Source: a virus. Taken from it: 49,245 bases of DNA. The DNA is taken from positions 1 through 49,245 of IMG/VR virus record IMGVR_UViG_3300044638_004599. The stretch is one strand, 5' to 3'. Under the pieces are notes generated by a model that worked only from the letters and a program-made list of their open reading frames with translations, was not told the origin of the DNA and did no database searches. The position numbers and the translations under genes were made by a program. Below, piece by piece: positions 1 through 45,571 of this stretch. Every line of letters begins with the position of its first letter. Position 1 is the stretch's first letter.

Positions 1-146
1 ATAAGGTCTTCCACCTCATCAACATTATATGTATCCACCTGTTCGTGAGTGTCCACTCCCCTGATGTGGAGTGCTGGCTCATCAGGGTGGTGTGGATTAA
101 TTGTAATAAACAAATCCATGTTTTGCTTTAGTTCTCGCTTGCTCAT
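1..146 (-). CDS. hypothetical protein, 3' end beyond window
   Basis: Reading frame open from an ATG at 146 down to the window edge, 48 residues visible, starting MSKRELKQNMDLFITI and continuing with acidic residues (VDEVEDL). An AGGA ribosome site lies about 9 nt before the ATG. It is the last gene after the tRNA pair on the same strand. No family recognised; the C-terminus is missing. Confidence 0.6.
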   Translation of the reverse strand, partial: MSKRELKQNMDLFITINPHHPDEPALHIRGVDTHEQVDTYNVDEVEDL

Positions 147-188
147 ATAATGTTTCCTGTAGTGCTAATGTAACTCGGTTTAATTAGG

Positions 189-254
189 TGTAGGTAGCAG
201 GATTCGAACTTGCATATCCACGAAGTGGAATGTTTCCATTTACATCATACCTAC
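189..254 (-). tRNA. tRNA-like element with a shrunken anticodon arm (degenerate tRNA?)
   Basis: The minus strand folds into a perfect 7-bp acceptor stem (GTAGGTA/TACCTAC), a 4-bp D stem (ATGT/ACAT) with GG in its loop, and a T arm with the canonical TTCGAAT loop but one A-C mismatch in the stem. Between them, where a 5-bp stem and 7-nt anticodon loop should sit, is only TCCAC-TTC-GTGGA, a stem with a 3-nt loop. The element is 66 nt instead of about 73. No readable anticodon can be assigned. It starts 2 nt after the 3' end of tRNA-Gly, so both are probably on one transcript. It may be a decaying tRNA gene or a tRNA mimic. Confidence 0.5.
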
Positions 255-256
255 AA

Positions 257-328
257 TGCGGGAGGAGAGAATCGAACTCTCGTGACGGGTTTGGAAAACC
301 CGCGTAATAGCCGCTATACGACACCCGC
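257..328 (-). tRNA. tRNA-Gly (anticodon UCC)
   Basis: Cloverleaf on the minus strand: acceptor GCGGGTG paired with the 3' strand ending CCCGC (one mismatch), a D arm, anticodon stem CGGGT/ACCCG with loop TTTCCAA (anticodon TCC) and a T arm with TTCGATT. It reads GGA codons. The D-arm and TTCGATTCTC region resembles phage T4 tRNA-Gly. The discriminator base appears to be A rather than the usual U of bacterial tRNA-Gly, and CCA is not encoded. Confidence 0.88.
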
Positions 329-377
329 GTATTGCATCTACTTTAATGTGATACAGAATTCTCTTTGCCATGCACAC

Positions 378-405
378 AGTATAGCGTGTGTGGCAAGAGT
401 GTCAA
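378..405 (-). promoter_or_regulatory. sigma70-type promoter for the tRNA pair
   Basis: Minus strand TTGACA (400-405), 16-nt spacer, TATACT (378-383). This near-consensus promoter points at tRNA-Gly (5' end at 328) and lies in the gap after the gene ending at 433. Confidence 0.8.
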
Positions 406-432
406 GGGAGCAACCCCATCTCAATTATTTAA

Positions 433-681
433 TTACGAGAGCAGCGCACCCGTGATGCCAGCACCACAGGAAATACCCCATGCACGAATCTGAAAAATCT
501 TAGACTCATTGCCCATCAGGCTAACACGATTTGAAAGTGTTGTGCCGTTAGCCTTGTAAGTGTAAATGTCTACAGTATTTCCACTACCCGTAGTATTGGT
601 GAGTAGAACTCCCTTGTTCTTGCCGCCAAATTGCCCACCTGTGCCACCAAATGGTATTGCTTCGTTGAATAGGTAACTCAT
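433..681 (-). CDS. hypothetical small beta-rich protein
   Basis: 82 residues from an ATG at 681, with ribosome site AAGGAGA about 8 nt upstream. It is rich in Gly, Thr, Asn and Ser with short alternating hydrophobic stretches (VDIYTYKANGTTL, SKIFQIRAWGI). This composition resembles the fibre/decoration subunits near 46 kb, so a virion surface role is possible but unproven. It lies between the tmRNA terminator and the tRNA promoter. No family recognised. Confidence 0.7.
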   Translation of the reverse strand: MSYLFNEAIPFGGTGGQFGGKNKGVLLTNTTGSGNTVDIYTYKANGTTLSNRVSLMGNESKIFQIRAWGISCGAGITGALLS

Positions 682-713
682 GCGCGATCTCCTTGTATTG
701 TATGTATAAATGG

Positions 714-735
714 AAAAGGGAGCCTTGCGACTCCC
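714..735 (-). terminator. rho-independent terminator after the tmRNA
   Basis: Minus strand GGGAGTC-GCAA-GGCTCCC hairpin (7 bp with one G-U pair, GNRA-type loop) followed by TTTT. It directly follows the tmRNA coding segment and separates it from the gene at 433-681. Confidence 0.75.
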
Positions 736-777
736 CTTTCAGCCCTTTCAGATGCGGGAGGGCTAGTCCCCACGGCT

Positions 778-804
778 TTAAGCCGCCATTGCTAGTTTGT
801 TAGC
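778..804 (-). other. tmRNA tag-peptide reading frame (proposed ANKLAMAA-stop)
   Basis: Within the tmRNA coding piece the frame GCT AAC AAA CTA GCA ATG GCG GCT TAA encodes ANKLAMAA followed by stop. Tags usually begin with Ala-Asn and end with hydrophobic residues plus Ala-Ala, the ClpXP degron, and this one fits. The proposed resume codon is 27 nt after PK1, longer than the roughly 11 nt in E. coli, so the true resume codon could be upstream in the same frame (for example the TTG or CAA codons), giving a longer tag. Confidence 0.6.
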
Positions 805-831
805 AATCATGGTTTGCAACGGTTTATTTAC

Positions 832-854
832 GACACTTGTTACCCGTGTCGGGT
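832..854 (-). other. tmRNA pseudoknot PK1
   Basis: On the minus strand, stem 1 is ACCC (851-854) with GGGT (842-845) and its loop is GACAC. That loop pairs with GTGTC (832-836) downstream, an H-type pseudoknot just upstream of the tag as in other tmRNAs. Confidence 0.7.
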
Positions 855-1063
855 ATCTCCTTCATCCTTACTTTTCGCCAATCTATTCCTTTCGACCCCG
901 TGACCCGAAGCCTAGGACTTCGGGAAATGCCCCACTGTTGCGAGGACTTGTCTCGCCGTCTCTAGAGTTTTACAGGTGCTCTAGATTAGGCTAATGGAGT
1001 CGGGGGGATTCGAACCCCCGTCTTGTACGGATTTCATTCCGAGATCAACAATACCAAAAGTAT

Positions 1064-1396
1064 TTATGCAACAGTGAGTTCAACACGAACCCAATCGCTT
1101 GTCCGCAATTCGCCGAGTTCTACACGGAGTGCCGACATAGCCACGCCCACCACAACCCGCTCACGGTCTACTCCTGCAACACCGTATTCCCACATGGAAG
1201 ACCGCAAACTAATAAATGGTCCGCCTTCAAAGTCTACAAAGTCAATTACCCCTGGTTCGTTTTCAACCCACGCAGAACGAATAAACGCACTTGCGCCTTC
1301 AACAGTAAAAGTGTTCTCACCTGTTTTTGTGGTGATGCGCTCTTGACCGTATCGGTTGCGCCACGACCACTGAGTTTTTGAATTTTTTGCGGTCAT
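1064..1396 (-). CDS. hypothetical protein
   Basis: 110 residues from ATG at 1396, overlapping the stop of the upstream gene by 4 nt (ATGA coupling) and ending immediately before the tmRNA acceptor piece. N-terminus MTAKNSKTQWSWRNRYGQ, then mixed alpha/beta with FVDFEGGPFISLRSSMWEYG. No signal peptide or membrane segment. The FxDFEGGPF stretch recalls the FIDYEGMGLWIFG segment of the protein at 2292-2570, so the two may be distant relatives. Function unknown. Confidence 0.7.
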   Translation of the reverse strand: MTAKNSKTQWSWRNRYGQERITTKTGENTFTVEGASAFIRSAWVENEPGVIDFVDFEGGPFISLRSSMWEYGVAGVDRERVVVGVAMSALRVELGELRTSDWVRVELTVA

Positions 1397-1626
1397 ATTG
1401 GTAAAGCCATTTCGTTTTCATTGTAAGCGGTGCGCCACACAGCAAGAGGAACAAACAGCGGTCCTCCTTGAGCATCATCCCACATCCACCACCCGCCACT
1501 TGTTTCCGCGCAGTACAGAAGAATTTGTCCTTCTTCAGTACTCTGTCGAAGAGCCATGTGCCACAGGTAGTGTTCTAACCCCACAATCCATCCTGCTCCG
1601 TAGTACTCTTCACTTAAATTATGCAT
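1393..1626 (-). CDS. hypothetical Trp-rich protein
   Basis: 77 residues if started at the ATG at 1626, which overlaps the stop of the 1619-1801 gene (TAATGCATAA). The sequence has many aromatics (GAGWIVGLEHYLWHMAL, TSGGWWMWDDAQGG). The same frame stays open up to an ATG at 1836 that has a good GGAG ribosome site, so a 147-residue version is possible. The shorter form is preferred because the upstream part overlaps a better-looking gene. It ends in an ATGA overlap with the next gene. Function unknown. Confidence 0.55.
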   Translation of the reverse strand: MHNLSEEYYGAGWIVGLEHYLWHMALRQSTEEGQILLYCAETSGGWWMWDDAQGGPLFVPLAVWRTAYNENEMALPI

Positions 1627-1801
1627 TACCCGCAGAAGAATCTTTCGGTGGATTTCTCTTCCCCCCATTCTTCCGCTTACTACTGTTCCGCTTGGGGGCA
1701 GATCCTTTGGAGCCAAAGGCGGCTTCCCACCCACTCTCCCAAGCCACGCGATCAACCTTGCGATAGGAGTCGCCTTTTCCTGCTGCGTGTTTTCTAGACA
1801 T
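1619..1801 (-). CDS. small basic phage protein (MSRKHAAGKGD type)
   Basis: 60 residues beginning MSRKHAAGKGDSYRKVD, a pattern remembered from small conserved phage proteins, and ending in a Lys/Arg/Ser/Pro-rich tail. The start is 3 nt after the stop of the upstream frame (1805-2008), with a weak GCGAG site. It lies entirely inside a longer open frame (1393-1836) on the same strand, so only one of the two, or a nested pair, is translated here. Composition favours this frame. Function unknown. Confidence 0.6.
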   Translation of the reverse strand: MSRKHAAGKGDSYRKVDRVAWESGWEAAFGSKGSAPKRNSSKRKNGGKRNPPKDSSAGNA

Positions 1802-1804
1802 TCA

Positions 1805-2008
1805 TTACTCGCTTGTATGAAATTTTTTGCAGACATTTAATTTTCTCCAAGCGGATCGGAATAGAGAGAGGGTGTGAGGGGAGTATTCCAATGCCCCTCC
1901 GCGATCACGCCTGAACCGTTCAAGTGGCGGCAACCCTCCGCGTAATTCAGCAACGGCTTTCGCCAAGTCCCGAAGGGCTTCCAATTCGGCTTCGTCTTTC
2001 CCGTGCAT
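1805..2008 (-). CDS. hypothetical helical protein, possibly the second half of a frameshifted gene
   Basis: 67 residues starting MHGKDEAELEALRDLAKAV, an Ala/Glu/Leu-rich helical N-terminus with strong coding character (many G-first codons), then a basic segment. It lies in the -1 frame relative to 1837-2061. A GGGGG run just upstream of its ATG would join the two by a -1 slip into one protein of about 84 residues. Its start sits in a 16-nt repeat also found at the start of 1837-2061. Confidence 0.5.
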   Translation of the reverse strand: MHGKDEAELEALRDLAKAVAELRGGLPPLERFRRDRGGALEYSPHTLSLFRSAWRKLNVCKKFHTSE

Positions 2009-2061
2009 GGCGTACCCCCATGTGAGTAGTCGTCTCCAAATCCATAAATGATTCCGTGCAT
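1837..2061 (-). CDS. hypothetical protein; N-terminal part convincing, C-terminal part uncertain
   Basis: 74 residues from ATG at 2061. The first 16 residues (MHGIIYGFGDDYSHGG) look coding. After the GGGGG run the frame overlaps the better-looking 1805-2008 frame. No strong ribosome site precedes it, but it follows the stop of the RHH-like gene within 9 nt. The frame ends directly at the ATG at 1836. Either two overlapping genes or one gene with a -1 shift. No family recognised. Confidence 0.4.
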   Translation of the reverse strand: MHGIIYGFGDDYSHGGTPCTGKTKPNWKPFGTWRKPLLNYAEGCRHLNGSGVIAEGHWNTPLTPSLYSDPLGEN

Positions 2062-2069
2062 GGCGTACC
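2001..2069. repeat. 16-nt direct repeat carrying two start codons
   Basis: The plus-strand 16-mer ccgtgcatggcgtacc occurs at 2001-2016 and 2054-2069. On the minus strand each copy reads GGTACGCC-ATG-CACGG and supplies the start (Met-His-Gly) of one of the two overlapping frames. Confidence 0.85.
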
Positions 2070-2070
2070 G

Positions 2071-2277
2071 TTAAAATGTATGAGTGGAAACGGTAGTAGG
2101 CACAGTGGGTGCAGGTGTAGTTTCGCCAACGCGAGAAATACCTTCCTGCACAATACGATTAATCTGTTGATTGAATGTGGTGTTGGTGTCGTGCGCCAAC
2201 TTTGCAATCTTTAGAAACACCGTGTCGCTAATATTCAGCGTAAGGGTGATCTGCATGGGCTTCTTGGGTGTACTCAT
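2071..2277 (-). CDS. putative ribbon-helix-helix (CopG/Arc-like) DNA-binding protein
   Basis: 68 residues starting MSTPKKPMQITLTLN. A short beta strand (QITLTLNIS) is followed by two helices (DTVFLKIAKLAHDT, TFNQQINRIVQEGI), the RHH arrangement in which the strand of a dimer enters the DNA major groove. A Thr/Pro-rich tail follows. The ATG at 2277 is chosen over an upstream in-frame start because the extra residues look non-coding. It may be a small phage transcription regulator. The assignment rests on predicted secondary structure only. Confidence 0.55.
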   Translation of the reverse strand: MSTPKKPMQITLTLNISDTVFLKIAKLAHDTNTTFNQQINRIVQEGISRVGETTPAPTVPTTVSTHTF

Positions 2278-2291
2278 AATGTAGTGCTCCG

Positions 2292-2570
2292 TTAGATTTT
2301 CATTCCTGTTAATGCGAGAACAGCAATTTCTCGCGCACACGGTGAAACCCACAATTCACGGGGATCAACACCCCAATCACGAACTGCTCGTCCCACCAAC
2401 TTATTTAGATCGGAATCCCGATCCACGATCTCGGAAGTTTCGAATTCAGGCTTTACACTTGCGCCGTGATGAATTCCAAAAATCCACAATCCCATTCCTT
2501 CGTAGTCAATAAAAGCAATTTGATCGGTTTCGGTATCAGACTCGTAATTTAAGAATTCGTTTTCGTTCAT
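2292..2570 (-). CDS. hypothetical protein
   Basis: 92 residues from the ATG at 2570 (MNENEFLNYESDTETDQ); an earlier ATG at 2594 adds 8 residues. Acidic N-terminus, then AFIDYEGMGLWIFGIHHG and a C-terminal part with DWGVDPRELWVSPCAREIAV. Soluble and acidic, with no membrane segment. It lies 14 nt upstream of the RHH-like gene on the same strand. Function unknown. Confidence 0.65.
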   Translation of the reverse strand: MNENEFLNYESDTETDQIAFIDYEGMGLWIFGIHHGASVKPEFETSEIVDRDSDLNKLVGRAVRDWGVDPRELWVSPCAREIAVLALTGMKI

Positions 2571-2696
2571 AGCGTATCCAAGGTGAGTAGGCAATCAGAC
2601 GGGGGTGAAGTAGTAAAATAGGCGGTTCAGGTGTCGATCCTGATTGAATCCGATATAAGCGGATCTGCGGAGCCGTCCGCCCACCGCCCAAAAAAT

Positions 2697-2918
2697 TTAA
2701 CGATGAATTGATGCAAGCAGGAACGAAGCAGCAACAAGTCCTGTGATGCACAGTGCAGGAACCAAAGGTGCAGAGACAAGGGCAACAATCAGTGCAACCG
2801 ACAGCATTACTGAAATTGCAATTGCCTCTAGTTCAGTATTCACATAGAGAACAGTAGGAGCGGTCTTAGGGGACTTCTTGGTAGACTTCTTTGGAGCAGA
2901 CTTAATTGACTTCTTCAT
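2697..2918 (-). CDS. small membrane protein, Lys-rich N-terminus
   Basis: 73 residues, start at 2918 with GAGGATACCC before the ATG; it overlaps the upstream gene by 17 nt. N-terminus MKKSIKSAPKKSTKKSPK is strongly basic. Two hydrophobic segments follow (about residues 29-46 and 49-68), separated by a short turn, so a two-helix hairpin in the inner membrane with N-terminus inside is predicted. Size and topology suit an accessory membrane protein or small holin, but nothing specific identifies it. Confidence 0.65.
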   Translation of the reverse strand: MKKSIKSAPKKSTKKSPKTAPTVLYVNTELEAIAISVMLSVALIVALVSAPLVPALCITGLVAASFLLASIHR

Positions 2919-3171
2919 GGGTATCCTCGGTAATTGCAACTCGACTTTTCTTGTTGGTAACATGACCACTAGGGGTCTTCAGGAAGTAGTTGCTCTTCCC
3001 TCGATCCGTATCGTGACCAAGACGGTAGTTAATAGAGGGAACTTCGCGGCTCCGAAGTTCCTCAAGGAGATGAGGGGATTGAAGTGCAGTAATCACGGTT
3101 TGAGAAACCACGAGTGCTTCTGCTTCACTCAAAGGCATGGCGATGTCGATGTGTAGCCTGTACGCTGTCAT
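2902..3171 (-). CDS. hypothetical protein, first gene of an operon
   Basis: 89 residues with AAGGAGT about 7 nt before ATG 3171 and a sigma70-like promoter upstream (3193-3220). Mixed alpha/beta (YRLHIDIAMPLSEAEALVVSQ, SINYRLGHDTDRGKSNYFL). It overlaps the start of the membrane protein gene at 2918. No family recognised. Confidence 0.7.
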   Translation of the reverse strand: MTAYRLHIDIAMPLSEAEALVVSQTVITALQSPHLLEELRSREVPSINYRLGHDTDRGKSNYFLKTPSGHVTNKKSRVAITEDTHEEVN

Positions 3172-4525: not shown

Positions 4526-5373
4526 TCGTGTTCTCCTTGCTTGTGTGTGACTGTGAGTACCCAACCGTCAGCAACAATACAGTTCCAACAGGTACGCGCT
4601 TCTTCCTTGGTGTAGATGTTGCTTACATAAGTCTCGTCTGAAGACTTAATATTAACACGACCATCGGCTGTAGTACACATGACGATGAGGTGATCATTCT
4701 TCTCGAATGACCACAACTGCATCCGAAACGGAACATCAGCAGCAGGAGCCGCTGTAGGCTGCACCACTGTGCGAGTAAGAGGAGCAGTACGCTTACTATC
4801 CAAGTCTTCAGCAGAAAAATTGATTTCTGAAATCTGTCCTGGATTTAAAACGGTTGTACCGCTAAAGCACCAAGCCCATTTATTCGCCAACATATTGGTG
4901 AAAATGCCAGGCGTGAGTGTGCGATTATCGAAATACCACTTCTTTAAATCGCCGCTCCACTTTGCACCAAGGTTCTTCACTCCGTCCTTGTGGGCAAACG
5001 GAACAACAAGCCACAAGCGAAACGGCAGTGCTGTATTGATGTCGCTGAACTGCAAAGCATTGGCATTAAACACAGGAGCCAAGCGTTCACCGTGAATCAT
5101 TTGGTTCGTGTTCAACCAAGCAATGGTTTCAGTAGTAAACTTATTTTGCGGAAGCCACCACTTCATTTTGCCCTTTGCAGCAGGAACAAAACGCGCTCCG
5201 CGAGTTTTTGCTTCATCGCGAATAGCGGTGCTGCCCTTGGTGCGAAACGGAATATTGATCCACAGACCGTATGGGGGCGTGGAAGCGTTGAGCGTGTAGA
5301 TATTGTAAGTGGATGCTTTCGGCATTTTGGTGCGAGACGGTGAGGAGACGGTAGCGGACGGAGCGGTAGCCAT
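4522..5373 (-). CDS. DUF5710-like two-repeat protein
   Basis: 283 residues. Two copies of a DUF5710-like unit are visible. The second (about residues 118-150) has VPFAHKDGVKNLGAKW followed by KKWYF, the usual VPFxxKDxxKxLGAxWxxxxKxWY pattern. The first (about 36-75) is more divergent (INIPFRTKGSTAIRDEAK with a WWLP end). The C-terminal domain is duplicated in the next gene. DUF5710 occurs in phage and mobile-element proteins, often beside DNA-processing domains; its role is unknown. The start codon lies 8 nt after a perfect TATAAT box, so the mRNA is predicted to be leaderless. Confidence 0.7.
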   Translation of the reverse strand: MATAPSATVSSPSRTKMPKASTYNIYTLNASTPPYGLWINIPFRTKGSTAIRDEAKTRGARFVPAAKGKMKWWLPQNKFTTETIAWLNTNQMIHGERLAPVFNANALQFSDINTALPFRLWLVVPFAHKDGVKNLGAKWSGDLKKWYFDNRTLTPGIFTNMLANKWAWCFSGTTVLNPGQISEINFSAEDLDSKRTAPLTRTVVQPTAAPAADVPFRMQLWSFEKNDHLIVMCTTADGRVNIKSSDETYVSNIYTKEEARTCWNCIVADGWVLTVTHKQGEHE

Positions 5374-5381
5374 ATAGTCAA

Positions 5382-5410
5382 ATTATACTAAAAACAGGGG
5401 ATTCCGTCAA
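5382..5410 (-). promoter_or_regulatory. strong sigma70-type promoter giving a leaderless mRNA
   Basis: Minus strand TTGACG (5405-5410), exactly 17-nt spacer, TATAAT (5382-5387), then 8 nt to the ATG at 5373. Transcription would start about 2 nt before or at the ATG. The -35 and much of the spacer lie in one arm of the inverted repeat at 5394-5457. Confidence 0.88.
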
Positions 5411-5457
5411 TGGTCACGGAGGGTAAAGTCCGATAACTTATTGACAGAATCCCCTGT
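5394..5457 (-). terminator. 18-bp inverted repeat; likely terminator overlapping a promoter
   Basis: Arms 5394-5411 and 5440-5457. As minus-strand RNA all 18 positions pair (one G-U) and the hairpin is followed by UUUUU. As plus-strand RNA the same position would be a C-A mismatch, so pairing is better kept on the minus strand. It lies between the gene ending at 5497 and the promoter at 5382-5410, whose -35 box is inside the 3' arm. Confidence 0.65.
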
Positions 5458-5496
5458 ATTTCAGCCTGTTTTTGGTACAGTCAAACCATGATTATT

Positions 5497-7991: not shown

Positions 7992-9068
7992 TCATCCTCT
8001 TTTATTTTGTCCTCTTCCACTTTTATTTATTGGTGATGTTGGTGGTGCCACAACAGGGATTGGTACGGGAACATTTCGAGACATTGTGTACGCACCCCAT
8101 GCTGCTTGCAGTTGAGCAAGATCGGATCCATCTACTTTGCCGTCTCCATTGAGATCCATGAAGATGTTTCCATTGCCCCATGCACCAAGCAGTGCTGCCA
8201 AGTCTGCACCATCAACTTTACCGTCATCATTCAAGTCTTCAATCTTAGAAGACAATTTCACATGAGTTACTGTATAACCGTGTGGTTTGAGTTCGGAATT
8301 AATTGCACGAATCTCAGGAGCGTTTACCTGCATCCCGCCGTTCATTAGTCCAACGAATACAGTATGTCCTGCTTCATCAATAACGAATGCAGGACTGCCT
8401 GAATCACCACCCCAAATAACCACCCATCCGCCAGCCTGTGCGCCGTCATTAACACCGTCCATGATTGGCATAACACCAAACCCGCTGCACACATCAGCAT
8501 TGCTCACAAAGGATTTGTCCATTGACATTTTGTATGCCCTGCCTTGACAGTCGTGTACCCACACAGGGTGTTTGAGTGGAATATATCGCGCATCGGCGAT
8601 ATGATCGTAAACGCAAACATCCGCAGGGAATGCCGATTCAAACTCTAATAGGGTGTGGTCAGGGGCAATTGCAAAAGTTACCTTTATAACTCTTCGCGAA
8701 TGCCGAGTTCCTGATTTTCCTAAGAATGTATAGACTTCATTTTCGCCAACAGGTCGCCCTGCGCCACGATAGTGTTCGCAGATGAGTGCGTGTTTCGGCG
8801 AGATAAGAACAGCAGCAGGATTGCTGGTGTTCCAAAAATTTATGTTCTCCGCAACATATGGAGTGGTAAGATTGCCTCTTAGTAATTTAGAATACTCTCG
8901 CGCAAATGCACGAGGACGCAGAGAGACTCCTGACCAATCAACTGCTGCTCCCTGACAAGCAGGGTTGAATCCCCTCTGCTCACCACCAACAAGTGGTGTG
9001 AGTGTTGCTTCGGGTGAGTAAGTATGAATGTCGTGAACGGTGGGATTGTAGTTTTTTAGTATTGCCAT
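7992..9068 (-). CDS. trypsin-like serine protease with C-terminal dockerin-like repeats
   Basis: 358 residues. The protease core has a His region (SPKHALICEH, H93/H99), a candidate Asp (APDH, D137) and the nucleophile motif GGDSGSPAF (S223). Residues about 277-325 hold two dockerin/EF-hand-like calcium repeats, each with D-L-N-x-DGKVDG-x-DLA and ending in AWG. A Pro-rich and basic tail follows. No signal peptide is evident, so it may be a virion protein rather than a Sec-secreted enzyme. Dockerins bind cohesins in bacteria; the DLNGDG...LLGAWG form is common in Planctomycetes and other environmental bacteria. Whether it self-processes or degrades host surface proteins is unknown. Confidence 0.7.
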   Translation of the reverse strand: MAILKNYNPTVHDIHTYSPEATLTPLVGGEQRGFNPACQGAAVDWSGVSLRPRAFAREYSKLLRGNLTTPYVAENINFWNTSNPAAVLISPKHALICEHYRGAGRPVGENEVYTFLGKSGTRHSRRVIKVTFAIAPDHTLLEFESAFPADVCVYDHIADARYIPLKHPVWVHDCQGRAYKMSMDKSFVSNADVCSGFGVMPIMDGVNDGAQAGGWVVIWGGDSGSPAFVIDEAGHTVFVGLMNGGMQVNAPEIRAINSELKPHGYTVTHVKLSSKIEDLNDDGKVDGADLAALLGAWGNGNIFMDLNGDGKVDGSDLAQLQAAWGAYTMSRNVPVPIPVVAPPTSPINKSGRGQNKRG

Positions 9069-13743: not shown

Positions 13744-15087
13744 TTAGAAAGGGCACTTCGTGGAGTCCGCAGCAGGAGCATCAACAGGCTGCGGCATCTG
13801 TGCGTCCGCATCAATCTTTGTGTAGAACTGCGTGAACGAATCCTTCGTGGATTCATCGAACCGCGCAACGCAACGCTGAATGGCAGTCATCTTGCAGCCG
13901 AACACAGAGTACGCAAACACGATATCGCGCAAGCGGCGAGTCGTAATGATTTCACTCACGACCTGTTGCTTGAACGACTTGCGAATGATATCAGCCCACT
14001 GCACGAGATTCTCAACGAATGCATCGTCCTCAACACCAACAGAACCCGCAAACTTCGCGAGAATCTTCTTCTCGATCTTCGGGTCTGCATAGTCCTGCTC
14101 GTAGGTGAACGCGAAGCGATCCAAGAACGCTTCATTAAGAATGTTCGTTCCTGCGAATCGACCGTCATCGCTGCCCTTGCCCTTTGTATTGGCAGTGGCA
14201 ACAATCGTGAATCCCTTTGCAGGACGCACATACTTGCCGATCTTCGGAATAAACTTGCCCTTGCCTTCAAGCACAGACTGCAAGCACATGATGAGGTGAC
14301 CACCAAGATCCACTTCATCCAACAGAAGAACAGCACCGCGTTCCATTGCAACAAGCACGGGACCAGGCACGAACTTTGTTTCGCCAGCAATAAGACGGAA
14401 ACCACCAAGCAGTTCGTCTTCGTCCGTTGCAGCGGTAAAGTTCACGCGAACGCATTCACGATCAAGATCAGCGCAGATCTGCTCCACCATAGTGGTCTTG
14501 CCGTTACCGCTCATACCTGTGATGAACACAGGGCAGAACGACTTCGACTTAATCACCTTCTTGATTTCGTTGTGGTAACCCCACGCAATGTAGTTGGGAT
14601 CAGCAGCAGGGGTAAAGGTTTCGCTTTCACCGTGCGACATTGCACGAGCGAGTTCAGCAGTGGAAATGCCAGTGGTCATTGCCACGGCAGTGCATGACTG
14701 CACAACAGGAGCGAGGGTAGGGGTCTTTGCGGTAATCTCCTTGAGAGTGGACTTAATGGATTTAACAGACTTAACAGTCTTGGCAGTCTTGCCAAGGTTC
14801 TTTGAACCTGCTGGTCGACCGCGCTTCACTTCGGTAATGGTGAATTGCGAATCGGTTGCAAACAGTTCAGCGATACGGTAAACACCGCGACCACTCTTGC
14901 GGTCTGCGGTCATGCACCATGCAGGAACAGCAGAGTAACCCGCAGACTTCGCAGCAAGAGTAAACGCAGCGAATGGAATCAAGCCGCCTGTCTTGGCATC
15001 AGTGATTCCGTGTTGCGCGAGGTATGGACGCACGGCAACGATAAAGGCGTGTTGGGTAGACGAAACGATAAAAGAGGAGTTCTTCAC
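13744..15087 (-). CDS. cobS: CobS/MoxR-like AAA+ ATPase with N-terminal AT-hook domain
   Basis: 447 residues from a GTG start. Residues 1-88 form a domain shared with the 12984-13364 protein, then an AT-hook-like RGRPAGSKN (89-97) and a Lys/Thr linker. The AAA+ core has Walker A GMSGNGKTT (191-199), Walker B LLLDEVD (254-260), sensor 1 ATAN (297-300) and a likely Arg finger FLDR (321-324). CobS-type ATPases partner with CobT-type VWA proteins; in bacteria the pair inserts cobalt into corrin. cobS-annotated genes are common in T4-like cyanophages. Here the AT-hook and the HExxH-bearing VWA partner suggest a phage-specific remodelling machine rather than simple chelation. Start: 7 nt after TATAAT, no ribosome site, so probably leaderless. 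Confidence 0.85.
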   Translation of the reverse strand: MKNSSFIVSSTQHAFIVAVRPYLAQHGITDAKTGGLIPFAAFTLAAKSAGYSAVPAWCMTADRKSGRGVYRIAELFATDSQFTITEVKRGRPAGSKNLGKTAKTVKSVKSIKSTLKEITAKTPTLAPVVQSCTAVAMTTGISTAELARAMSHGESETFTPAADPNYIAWGYHNEIKKVIKSKSFCPVFITGMSGNGKTTMVEQICADLDRECVRVNFTAATDEDELLGGFRLIAGETKFVPGPVLVAMERGAVLLLDEVDLGGHLIMCLQSVLEGKGKFIPKIGKYVRPAKGFTIVATANTKGKGSDDGRFAGTNILNEAFLDRFAFTYEQDYADPKIEKKILAKFAGSVGVEDDAFVENLVQWADIIRKSFKQQVVSEIITTRRLRDIVFAYSVFGCKMTAIQRCVARFDESTKDSFTQFYTKIDADAQMPQPVDAPAADSTKCPF

Positions 15088-15094
15088 GAGATTT

Positions 15095-15125
15095 ATTATA
15101 TCACAATCTGCCTGTGATCACAGGC
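15095..15125 (-). promoter_or_regulatory. promoter plus 16-bp palindrome before the CobS-like gene
   Basis: TATAAT on the minus strand at 15095-15100, 7 nt before the GTG start. The -35 position (weak, CTGTGA) lies inside the perfect palindrome GCCTGTGATCACAGGC (15110-15125). A bound protein would block or activate initiation, so this is a candidate operator. On the plus strand the palindrome is followed by TTTTT and could instead be a terminator. Confidence 0.6.
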
Positions 15126-15154
15126 TTTTTCACAATTAGTGTCCAATAATACTG
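15126..15154 (-). promoter_or_regulatory. shared upstream element, copy 1
   Basis: Plus-strand TTTTTCACA (15126-15134) and TGTCCAATAATACTG (15140-15154). The same two blocks occur at 17624-17654 upstream of the CobT-like gene. This suggests both genes of the pair are controlled by the same factor. Confidence 0.6.
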
Positions 15155-15194
15155 TACTTAACCCCTTGTGGGGTGAGGGTTTACATTTATTCTA

Positions 15195-17564
15195 TTAAAC
15201 AGCCAAATATTCGCCAACAATATTCGCAACAGTGCGGAGCGATCCCTGTGCAATCTGCGAATCAATGAATGCATTCGTCAGGGCGCGGTTCGTTGTTGCC
15301 TTGTCCATCTTCTCGTCTGCCTTGTCCATCAGGTTACGAGCAGTGGTGCTTACTTCGCCGTTCGACTCGCGCATGAAACGCGAAGCGTCAATCACTACAG
15401 CACTATCCCAACCTGCCACTGCACCACGAATGAAACCATCACGCTTCCAATCGCTCTTCGGTGCAGCAGTCATGTTGAACCGCTCCGCTGTAATGGTGCG
15501 CGAAGACCCGTCATTCAATCCAATCCAATGCACCTTGGAACCCGTGCGGCGGCGAATCATGTCCACTGCAATCATTGAGTGGGTATGACCCTTCGGTGAA
15601 ATCGCAACCGATCCAAACTGGTGGAGTTCATCAGTCTGAGTGGAGTAGCCGTACTTGTTCTGTGCACCACGCTTGTACATGGTGTTCAGGTCATACGATG
15701 CACCCGTCTGTGGATCCATCAGTACAACAATCCGATTGTGCGAAGCGCATGACGAACCTGTTTCGCGATCCCACTTGGAGCCGTTGAAACGAATCTGATC
15801 CGTTGGCTCACCATCAGTGAGAACAATCGTATGGGCAATCTGCACACCTGTACGCTTAATGAATGCAGAAACCAAATCTGCGCCAGCAATAAGTGCCGAG
15901 GTGGTTGGCGTACCGTTCAGTGCAAAGCGGTGATCAACCGAACCCATTCTGCGCCAATTCCACAGGCACGACTTCATGGCTTCGTAGTCTGCACCGCTCA
16001 TGCGGCTTGACAGGAGATTGAGCATAGTGATGCGCGTAACATTTGTAGTACGCTTATCCGCTGCTGCTGCCTCGTCACGATCCTTTGCATTGCGCTCGTC
16101 CTGAGCCGCCTGTGAATAGTGCTCCTTGAGATTCGAGAACAAGCCATCAGTGAACGCGTACACTTCGAACGGCACACCCGTCTTGCGGCAGAAGTCTGCA
16201 AGAATAAACAACTGCCCCATAGTGGACTGCATGATGCCGCTCATTGAACCCGACCAATCAAGCATGATCACGATGCCGTGATTCTTGCCGTCTGCAATGC
16301 GGGTGGTACGGCGGAAAATGTCTTCATTCCACTTGTACTGATTCATACGGAGAGTATCCAATGAACCCGTCTTTGCAGTTGAAGTTCTGCGCCACTGATC
16401 CGCTGCCTTGCGGCGATTAAAAGCATTTGCCATTGCCACAGCGGCAGTGGTGTAGTCCGAGATACGAACAGGCTTGCCCATGACTTGAGCCATTTCGCAC
16501 TCGCGCATGATCTGAATGATTGCCTTGTAGTCCACAGTGGTGGAGTTTGCCGCTGGCACTTCAACGCGAACCACTTCGCCAATCTCATGTGCGTCACCCT
16601 TAGCCATATCACTCAAAGCCTTTTCCATAGACTCGTTCGTGGTTGGCATTTCGGCTTCGGGCTTTGGTGCAGGAGTCTTGTCGGACTTCGGCGTACCCTT
16701 GCCAGCACCGCTCTCGCCACCTTCGCCGTCTGTGCTACTGTCATCGGCTTCATCGGTGGCTTCACCGTCTTCGCCATCAGAGTCTGAGTCATCACCCACA
16801 GTAGACTCTTCCGCATCGGCGTTCTCGCCTTCGGCTTCAGTCTCGCCCTGTGCTGTAGTAGTGGTTTCACTATCAGCGTCACCGTCTTCGCCGTCTTCGG
16901 TGCTGTCCTGTGGCTGCGGCTGCTCGTTCTGCTCTTGCTCTTCCTTCTGCTCCTGCTCCTGTTGTGAAAGCAGAATCATGTCCTGAGCCACAGCAACAAC
17001 CTCTTCCCAAGTAGTGAGTGCTTCAACACGAGCAACAAGCGGGGCTTCGGCAGCGGTAAAGCGCACAGCGGTGCCAAGGTACACGCCCAATTTAAAATTG
17101 AGGTTCACGCGGTCAGCAAAGCACAGTGAATTAGGATTTGAAACATTACCAAAGAAGCCGCGATCATTCAGCGTCTTGTAGCCTGAAAGAAAGTCTGAAC
17201 GCAAGCCACGGAACTTCTGCTGCATGAGCCGCTCAATACGAGCGTCTTCAACAATATTCAAATACGACTGTGCAGTCTTGCGAGGGCAACCCGTAGCAGC
17301 AGTAATGGAATCAATGCCATCACGCCATCCCTGTGCAGGAGTCCAAAGTGCATGAGCCACTTCGTGACCAACCAACATATCGTACAACTGCACCGATGCA
17401 CCTGACCACATAGGCAGACGCAATTGGCGCGACTTCAAATCGAATGACGCGGTTTCAACGCGCTCATGTGAAACAGTAATATTTTCAGCGGCAAGCAGTC
17501 GCGCAAGCGTAGACTTGGCGGCATTAGGTGCGGACGAGGTAGAGACGAGCGAAGTATTCGACAT
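15195..17564 (-). CDS. cobT: CobT-like protein: HExxH domain plus VWA domain
   Basis: 789 residues from ATG 17564. N-terminal domain with GHEVAHALW (zinc-metallopeptidase-type HExxH, about 66-74) and NIVEDARIERL (about 103-113). A long, highly acidic low-complexity linker (about 200-300) follows. The C-terminal VWA domain has the MIDAS motif LDWSGSMSG (D at about 436) and TDGEPTD. CobT-type VWA proteins bind the AAA+ CobS ring and present the substrate. The HExxH suggests peptidase ancestry or metal binding. An in-frame ATG at 17579 is less likely because it lies upstream of the -10 box TACAAT, which is 6 nt before the chosen start. Confidence 0.82.
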   Translation of the reverse strand: MSNTSLVSTSSAPNAAKSTLARLLAAENITVSHERVETASFDLKSRQLRLPMWSGASVQLYDMLVGHEVAHALWTPAQGWRDGIDSITAATGCPRKTAQSYLNIVEDARIERLMQQKFRGLRSDFLSGYKTLNDRGFFGNVSNPNSLCFADRVNLNFKLGVYLGTAVRFTAAEAPLVARVEALTTWEEVVAVAQDMILLSQQEQEQKEEQEQNEQPQPQDSTEDGEDGDADSETTTTAQGETEAEGENADAEESTVGDDSDSDGEDGEATDEADDSSTDGEGGESGAGKGTPKSDKTPAPKPEAEMPTTNESMEKALSDMAKGDAHEIGEVVRVEVPAANSTTVDYKAIIQIMRECEMAQVMGKPVRISDYTTAAVAMANAFNRRKAADQWRRTSTAKTGSLDTLRMNQYKWNEDIFRRTTRIADGKNHGIVIMLDWSGSMSGIMQSTMGQLFILADFCRKTGVPFEVYAFTDGLFSNLKEHYSQAAQDERNAKDRDEAAAADKRTTNVTRITMLNLLSSRMSGADYEAMKSCLWNWRRMGSVDHRFALNGTPTTSALIAGADLVSAFIKRTGVQIAHTIVLTDGEPTDQIRFNGSKWDRETGSSCASHNRIVVLMDPQTGASYDLNTMYKRGAQNKYGYSTQTDELHQFGSVAISPKGHTHSMIAVDMIRRRTGSKVHWIGLNDGSSRTITAERFNMTAAPKSDWKRDGFIRGAVAGWDSAVVIDASRFMRESNGEVSTTARNLMDKADEKMDKATTNRALTNAFIDSQIAQGSLRTVANIVGEYLAV

Positions 17565-17570
17565 ACCCAA

Positions 17571-17599
17571 ATTGTACATGAAATATAGGGGTTTTACAA
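17571..17599 (-). promoter_or_regulatory. promoter for the leaderless CobT-like gene
   Basis: Minus strand TTGTAA (17594-17599), 17-nt spacer, TACAAT (17571-17576), then 6 nt to ATG 17564. Confidence 0.6.
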
Positions 17600-43651: not shown

Positions 43652-45571
43652 TTAATTAGTCAAATCTACTACTTCACACGAGCCAGCACTACACGCAAAG
43701 GTTTGTGTGCCCTTGGTAGTGTCTTCCTTCTCGTACTTCGTCAACTCGCTCCAGTCAATAGACAGGGGCAGTTTTGCTGCTGCTGCTTCGTACTCTTCTT
43801 TTGTACAGTCCTGATACGGAGCCTGAACATAGGAGTGATCGGAGTGGGGCAAGAAACTCACACCTGACACTTCATCAAAGTGATCGTACACCCACGCACC
43901 CACCGCCATCCACTCGTACTCCTTGACAGTCACGGTGATGGACGGCTTGTGTTCACAGAAGTGCCGCTGATAGGTGAGCCACAACTCTAGATGAGCAATA
44001 GCAGTCAAGTCTGTGCGCGTGACAGATCCCACTGCCTTCTGCGGAAACGAGAACACCATTGTGTGATCAGGGCGCATGGCACACGGTTCAGCAGGGAATC
44101 CCTTGTCAATCATAAACTGACACATGGGATCCTTGCGATCTGCACGAACAGTACGAATGTAGTACTCGTTGTGACGAGCGTGAATACCGCTTGCGGAATC
44201 AGTTAACTGAGACACCGTTCCACTAGGCTTCACGCAAGTAATCGCAGCAGCAGGATTAATACCAATCTTCTTTGCCCACTCCTTGTTCGTTTCAACAGCA
44301 GTGGCACGAAGACCAGCAAGCAGTCTTTCCAATTCAGCACCCTGATCACGCATGAGTTTGTTGTCAAGAATGCCTGTGAGTGAAACACCAAGCAAGCACT
44401 CTTCTTCGCAGTTCTTCTTCCACTCACTTGACAGGTACGGGAAATTCGTGAGCGAGGCTTGCCATGTGCCAAGAATGGTGGCAAGACGAATCTTGCGCTT
44501 TAGAGTTTCGGGGGTATCGTCTGCACGAACAATGACTTCGCTCAGATTGCAGAACTCCTTGTCACGCAGAATAATCTCGGAGCAGGGGTTCGTACCAAAC
44601 TCGTAAGTGGCATCACGGCGATCACCAAGTTTCTCCACAGTTTTCTGTGCAGCCTGACGATTAAAGATGCCCCGTTCTCCGCTCTTGGACTTGTAGAGTG
44701 ACAGCCACTCTTCCATGAACACGCCAATCTCTGGCTTCTCTTTGTATGAAACCGAATTGTTTGCTAACGCTCGCTGTGGGTTTTCCAACCACCACTGCCC
44801 CACTTTAGCATCACGCATTCGCTCATCGGTGAGGTTCGAGAGAGAGATAAGAGCAGATCTACGCACTCCGCCGACCACGACAATTTCCGCAATCTTACAG
44901 ATAATGTCGTGGCATTCGATAGATGTGAGTTTTCTGCCAGCACTCTTCTTAAAAGTACTGACGGTAAATCGGAAGAGGTCTTCCAGTGGTTGCGGTCCAC
45001 TTGCGCGTCCACCGAAAGTTTTGAGACGCGCACCAAGAGGACGAATTTTAGAGGTGTCCCATCGGGGGATTTGACCTCCAATAAGTAGGGACACCAACTC
45101 GCGGTAGGCTTTTGCCCAACCTTCTTTGGAGTCTTTGACCACAATGAGCGTATCGCTTTGTGTAAACTCTTCAGCAATTGTAGGAAGTTTTTCAACATAC
45201 TGCCTTTCTACACTAAAGCCAACTCCTGTGCCACACATGAGAACATACAGAATCTCATCAAAGGCACGAACCTTGTTTACGGCAACATACGAGCAGTTGT
45301 ATCCTGCCGTGTTGTCACGCTTCAGTGCTTCTCCTGCGGTCATTAGTGAACGCATAGAAGGCATTACTTCTAAATTTAAAACTGCATCACGCAACTCATC
45401 GCGTATAGTCTTATTTAGTTTTACACCCTTTTCCGCAAAGTGTTCATCAAAGAAGCGGAAATAGCGGTCAACTGTTTCCTCCCATGACTCACGCCGTCCT
45501 TCGGTGTCAAGCCAACGAGAATAGCGTGAAAGGTGAATGAAAGATTGGTACAGCGTGGGAAGTGATTTCAT
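43652..45571 (-). CDS. nrdJ: adenosylcobalamin-dependent (class II) ribonucleotide reductase
   Basis: 639 residues, close to monomeric class II RTPR enzymes. N-terminal NCSYVAV (C93), then the active-site region FGTNPCSEIIL (thiyl-radical Cys C330 and E332) with the partner Cys in KEFCNLSEV (C341). The C-terminal redox pair lies in FACSAGSC (C627, C632). The enzyme reduces ribonucleotides to deoxyribonucleotides using adenosylcobalamin and supplies DNA precursors without oxygen dependence. Ribosome site AGGAGTTCGCT precedes ATG 45571. The long open frame has no disruptions. Confidence 0.92.
   Translation of the reverse strand: MKSLPTLYQSFIHLSRYSRWLDTEGRRESWEETVDRYFRFFDEHFAEKGVKLNKTIRDELRDAVLNLEVMPSMRSLMTAGEALKRDNTAGYNCSYVAVNKVRAFDEILYVLMCGTGVGFSVERQYVEKLPTIAEEFTQSDTLIVVKDSKEGWAKAYRELVSLLIGGQIPRWDTSKIRPLGARLKTFGGRASGPQPLEDLFRFTVSTFKKSAGRKLTSIECHDIICKIAEIVVVGGVRRSALISLSNLTDERMRDAKVGQWWLENPQRALANNSVSYKEKPEIGVFMEEWLSLYKSKSGERGIFNRQAAQKTVEKLGDRRDATYEFGTNPCSEIILRDKEFCNLSEVIVRADDTPETLKRKIRLATILGTWQASLTNFPYLSSEWKKNCEEECLLGVSLTGILDNKLMRDQGAELERLLAGLRATAVETNKEWAKKIGINPAAAITCVKPSGTVSQLTDSASGIHARHNEYYIRTVRADRKDPMCQFMIDKGFPAEPCAMRPDHTMVFSFPQKAVGSVTRTDLTAIAHLELWLTYQRHFCEHKPSITVTVKEYEWMAVGAWVYDHFDEVSGVSFLPHSDHSYVQAPYQDCTKEEYEAAAAKLPLSIDWSELTKYEKEDTTKGTQTFACSAGSCEVVDLTN

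Follow-up and report, generated by a model that had tools for sequence, protein, structure and literature searches.

The window analysed here, an entire IMG/VR record of 49,245 bases that is itself probably a genome fragment, carries on its minus strand a tmRNA gene that, as is strongly supported, is encoded by a phage and circularly permuted. From its sequence, it is likely that a T4-like phage makes a working two-piece tmRNA from this gene late in infection and uses it together with the SmpB of its host. The two halves of the gene are separated by a conserved, structured spacer, a feature of permuted tmRNAs that looks new.

Identity and structure of the permuted gene

The Rfam model of permuted tmRNA, RF04321, matches positions 778–1055 of the minus strand with 71.6 bits (gathering score, 47), the E-value being 6.9e-12 when the whole window is searched and 4.2e-13 when the search is confined to positions 1–3000. 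An earlier note on this DNA had claimed that the acceptor half precedes the coding half and had proposed a match to a permuted tmRNA model as the check. Such a match is now in hand, and the order is borne out both by its score and by the letters at 1055–995 and 899: along the minus strand, the acceptor half (1055–995) is followed by the spacer (994–900) and then by the coding half, from 899 onwards. The RNA ends that the note had placed near 899 and 995 are consistent with the letters found there, and its figure of about 94 nt for the spacer was roughly right, the counted length being 95 nt (Table 1). ARAGORN makes no tmRNA call at the permuted locus of the window, and beta_tmRNA (RF01850) matches positions 712–1102 of the minus strand with 44.2 bits, under its cut-off of 84. 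At E-values up to 10, alpha_tmRNA (RF01849) has nothing at the tmRNA locus, its two weak matches lying elsewhere in the window. The third subtype, cyano_tmRNA (RF01851), does not appear among the matches listed, where overlapping clan members of lower score are hidden.

The gene shares with bacterial permuted tmRNAs (RF04321, with its alpha, beta, and cyano subtypes) the order of the halves, a helix P2 formed across them, the tRNA-like domain, and a tag ending in AA. It differs from them in its lower RF04321 score (six bacterial examples reach 139 to 166 bits), in its tag of eight residues, and in the CCA, which is not encoded here, since the letters that follow the discriminator A are TTA. 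The acceptor stem GGGGTCG/CGACTCC has a G-U as its third pair (G3-U70) and is followed by the discriminator A73, so that both alanine-identity elements are present; they are invariant in alignment A1 (described below), although their letters were also used to fetch the relatives. The tag frame, GCT AAC AAA CTA GCA ATG GCG GCT TAA, encodes the eight residues ANKLAMAA, which end in AMAA and not in ALAA.

The structure was examined by covariation in viral relatives. Of the 36 distinct precursors, 31 remained after thinning, and 29 of these form alignment A1 (L025 and L038 were set aside for their long spacers); the regular expression used to find precursors missed L141–L143, whose T-arm letters differ. 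In A1, 94.1% of cells are paired, and changes on both sides are seen in 26 of the 55 proposed pairs against 13.8 in shuffles (0 of 500 reach 26) and in 127 cells against 39.9 (0 of 500), while pair types number 45 against 40.1 (5 of 500 shuffles reach 45), all these counts being inflated by related rows in the alignment. Both-sided changes occur in 8 of the 11 pairs of P2a and P2b, the helices that link one half to the other, and, with no shuffle matching the whole structure, the earlier claim that this pairing exceeds chance is upheld. In the coding half, such changes occur in 3 of 6 pairs of PK1 stem 1, in 3 of 5 of stem 2 (paired in 75.4% of cells), in 4 of 7 of the tag hairpin (807–788), in 1 of 5 of the stop hairpin (98.6% of cells paired), and in 1 of 4 and 5 of 5 pairs of the two stems of the second pseudoknot, the second of which is paired in 80.0% of cells. 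All the acceptor pairs and four of the five T-stem pairs are invariant across A1 and lie beyond the reach of covariation, because the relatives were fetched with those letters.

Table 1. Features of the permuted tmRNA locus, in window positions
Feature	Position	Strand	Basis
CATAAATA, T4-type late promoter core, predicted start 1055	1061–1068	minus	sequence; TAAATA spacing; placement as in PMC1524935
Acceptor (3') piece: P2 5' strands, T arm, CGACTCC, discriminator A	995–1055	minus	RF04321, P2 covariation, letters
Intervening spacer, 95 nt	900–994	minus	covariation, fold z, conservation
Spacer outer pairing GCC/GGC	991–989/957–955	minus	
Spacer hairpin H1	985–961	minus	
Spacer hairpin H2	947–929	minus	
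Spacer hairpin H3	924–904	minus	
Spacer loop-loop contact, CTGT with ACAG	975–972 with 938–935	minus	
Coding (5') piece, GGGGTCG through end of last pseudoknot	741–899	minus	RF04321 to 778; structure to 741
Pseudoknot PK1, stems 851–846/836–831 and 843–839/820–816	816–851	minus	covariation
Tag frame GCT..TAA, encoded tag ANKLAMAA	778–804	minus	letters; inside hairpin 807–788
Stop-codon hairpin CGGCTTAAAGCCG	773–785	minus	covariation, pairing
Second pseudoknot, stems 772–769/758–755 and 764–760/745–741	741–772	minus	covariation
Terminator-like hairpin with four-T tail	713–737	minus	fold z −4.55

The spacer between the halves

Among the distinct precursors, the spacer measures 12–13, 27, 31, 73, 85–87, 95–96, 109, 129, or 222 nt. 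The spacers of 28 of the 36 (21 in group 1 and 7 in group 2, the latter partly by motif) are read here as holding a common multi-hairpin element, which consists of H1 with the loop CUGYA, H2 with CAAGYCCYC and RCAG, and an optional H3. Within group 2, L020 was found by the group-1 model R1 (39.3 bits), and the other six of the seven were placed by three motifs. Two spacer alignments were used, A2 with 15 group-1 spacers and A3 with the 7 group-2 spacers. In group 1, both-sided changes affect 8 of 25 pairs, the figure for shuffles being 2.9 (none of 500 has as many as 8), while pair types, at 10 against 12.8, do not rise above shuffles. The contact between the loops CUGY and RCAG shows a single double change, CTGT/ACAG in the window against CTGC/GCAG in L026.

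Over 16 group-1 rows, mean identity is 0.875 in the spacer, 0.957 and 0.912 in the two pieces, and 0.495 just upstream. The fold of the window spacer has a z of −3.94, and those of L020 and L012 lie 3.14 and 2.00 SD below shuffles, that of L039 being unremarkable (1.08 SD below). In single-sequence folds, the first and last 12 nt pair with each other in none of the 28 element-bearing spacers against six of six comparators with spacers of at least 26 nt, by a measure that is lenient for short spacers and with Xanthobacter, whose coding start is misplaced, kept out of the comparators. In L010, otherwise near-identical to the window, 64 nt of the spacer are gone, so that the spacer is dispensable at least there.

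A conservation close to that of the RNA pieces, the eight pairs changed on both sides, and the one covarying loop-loop contact would all suit a spacer that is an RNA in its own right (a sensor, a self-cutting RNA, or a small regulatory RNA), controlling maturation or acting after its release. This reading is nevertheless regarded as a minority possibility, as the common element is missing from 8 of the 36 precursors, whose spacers are different and range from 12 to 222 nt, no Rfam family matches over its cut-off in the three precursors scanned, and R1 finds nothing outside tmRNA spacers. This last search covered 97 sources (926 kb) and gave 22 matches at E<0.01, all of them in tmRNA spacers, with a model that was built on group 1 and recovers only L020 among the seven group-2 spacers. 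A loose spacer pattern found 47 contigs, 8 of them known members, and missed group 1, in which the gap is shorter by one base; the 39 further contigs were searched with R1.

A named riboswitch or ribozyme was also considered for the spacer and dropped, all Rfam matches apart from the tmRNA models being below cut-off; a scan of three precursors at E-values up to 10 gave, besides those models, only weak matches of this kind. A likeness to twister-type ribozymes was considered as well; no such family is among the Rfam matches listed. Among the precursors without the common element, the spacer of L025, 222 nt long, encloses an open frame of 67 residues (5283–5486) with no Pfam or phage match, and an unrelated structured spacer of 129 nt (501–629, fold z −3.65) replaces the common element in L038.

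A literature search of partial coverage brought up no recognised description of a conserved structured tmRNA spacer. Its conservation here suggests that a discarded part of a permuted RNA can be under selection, and bears on the processing and origin of permuted RNAs.

Candidate late promoter core and proposed function

T4-type late promoters are described as TATAAATA, with CTAAATA in Aeh1, and the T4 core as lying at −13 to −6 from the start (PMC1524935). The window holds CATAAATA upstream of the acceptor half, and the same placement puts the predicted start at 1055, the first base of P2a. TAAATA ends 4 to 6 nt before P2a in 27 of the 36 distinct precursors (5 nt in 21, 6 nt in 5, and 4 nt in 1); the other nine lack a match at that place, eight of them having none and one having no recognised P2a. 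In the window, TAAATA has more occurrences than any other hexamer 5–60 nt before the gene starts called by our own simple procedure (11 of 35), ranking first by count among the 3765 hexamers with five or more occurrences, with a few others higher by fraction. A sigma-70 scan of positions 1–2400 gave no site upstream of the tmRNA gene. The tmRNA is probably switched on late in infection by a T4-type promoter, judging from these motifs, and the link between such a promoter and a tmRNA looks like a new detail. At the other end of the gene, the terminator-like hairpin (Table 1) is absent from the listing of a terminator scan. By eye, the last pseudoknot stem (CCCGGTTTT/AAAACCGGG) of L014, L041, and L050 leads directly into a run of T at the 3' end of the RNA, and could double as a terminator in these three.

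The carrier of the gene is, to judge from related contigs, a T4-like phage. A 113-kb contig (G001) encodes a peptidase that matches the one of the window with 100% identity over 794 residues; like five other large contigs, G001 holds homologues of gp23 (56–59% identity) and gp55 (39–67%) of Synechococcus phage S-CAM1. In the window, neither homologue turned up; of the 16 records in which gp55 was sought, 8 gave a match, and the window and seven others did not. The best listed cultured proteins for gp23 are those of Synechococcus myophages, with 53–55% over nearly the whole length, and nine unlisted records, presumably shorter, have a place at 60–80%. As with T4-type late promoters, the same type of phage has a gp55 homologue (in G001, not in the window record); here, if the inference holds, the promoter would drive a stable RNA and not a virion gene.

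Under the proposed mechanism, a late promoter of the gp55 type would start the RNA at 1055, so that the acceptor piece would need no 5' trimming. The structured spacer would fold inside the acceptor stem and present both its ends for cutting by tRNA enzymes of the host, after A73 (by an RNase Z-like enzyme) and before G1 (by RNase P), with CCA being added once the spacer has been removed. The two pieces would remain paired, be charged with alanine, and bind host SmpB. Ribosomes stalled on broken mRNAs would thereby be freed late in infection, and the released products, having received the short tag (A)ANKLAMAA, would be directed to proteolysis. Cut mRNAs are abundant late in T4-type infections, which makes a viral supply of rescue RNA plausible.

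No SmpB gene was found over cut-off in the 15 records searched (G005 gave one weak match, of 14.2 bits), and SmpB would consequently need to come from the host. The same result would fit a decoy, in which SmpB, alanyl-tRNA synthetase, or ribosomes of the host are sequestered by the phage RNA and host trans-translation is blocked, as would the precedent of phage DS6A, whose tmRNA, close to being tRNA-like only, resembles a tmRNA inhibitor (PMC4131195, PMC11915505). A decoy is nevertheless improbable, given that the tag frame, its stop codon, and its AA end are retained in all 36 distinct precursors listed, and that PK1 and the tag hairpin, unneeded by a pure decoy, covary.

The purpose of phage-carried tmRNA is unsettled. 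An early promoter and a glutamine riboswitch have been described for phage Melnitz, whose authors postulated an early tagging of host proteins (PMC9004378). In contrast, the window gene has a late-type promoter core, and its position relative to the first base of P2 predicts a timing opposite to that postulate.

Relatives, descent, and neighbouring genes

tmRNA has been reported in 402 of 18,146 phages, with 133 unique structures, of which 53 were predicted to be two-piece, 50 of these being marine or aquatic (PMC9004378); a further source gives a list of 79 phage tmRNA sequences and presents RF04321 as a merged model (PMC11915505). Since permuted phage tmRNAs have already been published, the core of the RNA described here represents a new clade of a known type. 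It resembles OM43 phage Melnitz, Pelagibacter phage HTVC008M, and Synechococcus phage S-CAM1 in being a permuted gene of T4-like marine phages (PMC9004378), the RF04321 scores of HTVC008M (90.6 bits) and S-CAM1 (99.1 bits) both being over cut-off. It differs from the cultured two-piece phage tmRNAs in forming a separate clade in a rough tree and in its multi-hairpin spacer of 95 nt, against spacers of 52 nt (end-paired) and 5 nt in cultured phages.

The 22-mer taken from the T arm and acceptor has exact copies in 43 viral contigs; of the 40 among them that had yet to be searched, 32 are over the RF04321 cut-off, and the other 8 were left out. A second pattern, from the coding piece, added 11 viral contigs, all of them over the cut-off. 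Three of the six contigs found through the peptidase carry the tmRNA, and those without it are two fragments (20 and 32 kb) and a third contig of 96 kb. Megablast of the first 12 kb of the window against 50,697 phage records gave no match; with the RNA gene region, four phage records matched, in the T arm and acceptor only.

In bacterial genomes, the coding-piece pattern hit 29 contigs. Their genomes hold a permuted tmRNA over cut-off in three cases (Paracoccus, Xanthobacter, and Novosphingobium) and weaker matches in four, and none of these seven RF04321 matches (E-value of 1e-4 or better) contains the pattern. Over the 120 genomes searched, RF04321 exceeds its cut-off in four; the lowest-scoring of these, L151 (51.4 bits), resembles a conventional one-piece gene and was kept out of the tree. 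In this rough tree, the viral family stands apart from three alpha, three beta-type (in the order of a Paraburkholderia genome), and two cultured-phage sequences with a support of 0.967, in a sample where the Xanthobacter row is imperfect and fetching by shared letters favours the viral grouping. The capture from an alphaproteobacterial, betaproteobacterial, or cyanobacterial host suggested in the earlier note is not shown, the beta model being under its cut-off, the alpha model having no match at the locus, and the viral family being separate in the tree, which holds no cyanobacterial chromosome. That the gene is a passive relic acquired from a host with a permuted ssrA is very improbable, since, although beta_tmRNA is the closest of the older models listed, the idea is largely refuted by compensatory changes over many viral contigs, and the viral family is separate from the sampled bacteria and no RF04321 match at an E-value of 1e-4 or better in the 29 pattern-hit genomes contains the pattern.

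A more far-reaching proposal would be that of a virus-borne lineage of permuted tmRNA, apart from the known bacterial ones and joined to a viral late promoter, in which the spacer would represent a structured RNA of a new class, a kissing-hairpin domain that controls the timing or manner of tmRNA cutting and maturation or, once released, functions as a viral RNA of its own. As a whole, this proposal is judged rather unlikely beside the preferred reading of a working, late-expressed tmRNA.

Several other features of the window were observed. On the minus strand, positions 189–254 have a tRNA score of 42 bits and no ARAGORN call; read by eye, the anticodon arm is UCCAC-UUC-GUGGA, with a loop of three bases, and this could represent a degenerate tRNA. 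Just upstream of a tRNA-Gly gene, at 378–405 and in the orientation of that gene on the same strand, lies a strong sigma-70-like site (TTGACA, 16 nt, TATACT; 11 of 12). Also on the minus strand, the product of positions 7992–9068 has matches to dockerin type I and EF-hand, and at 13744–17579 the peptidase adjoins a porphyrin-biosynthesis-like ATPase, an arrangement also found in Synechococcus phage S-CAM1. A class II (B12-dependent) ribonucleotide reductase, encoded at 43652–45571 (minus), shares about 65% identity with its counterparts in Lentibacter and Roseobacter phages, whereas for gp23 of the related contig the nearest of the listed rows are cyanophages.
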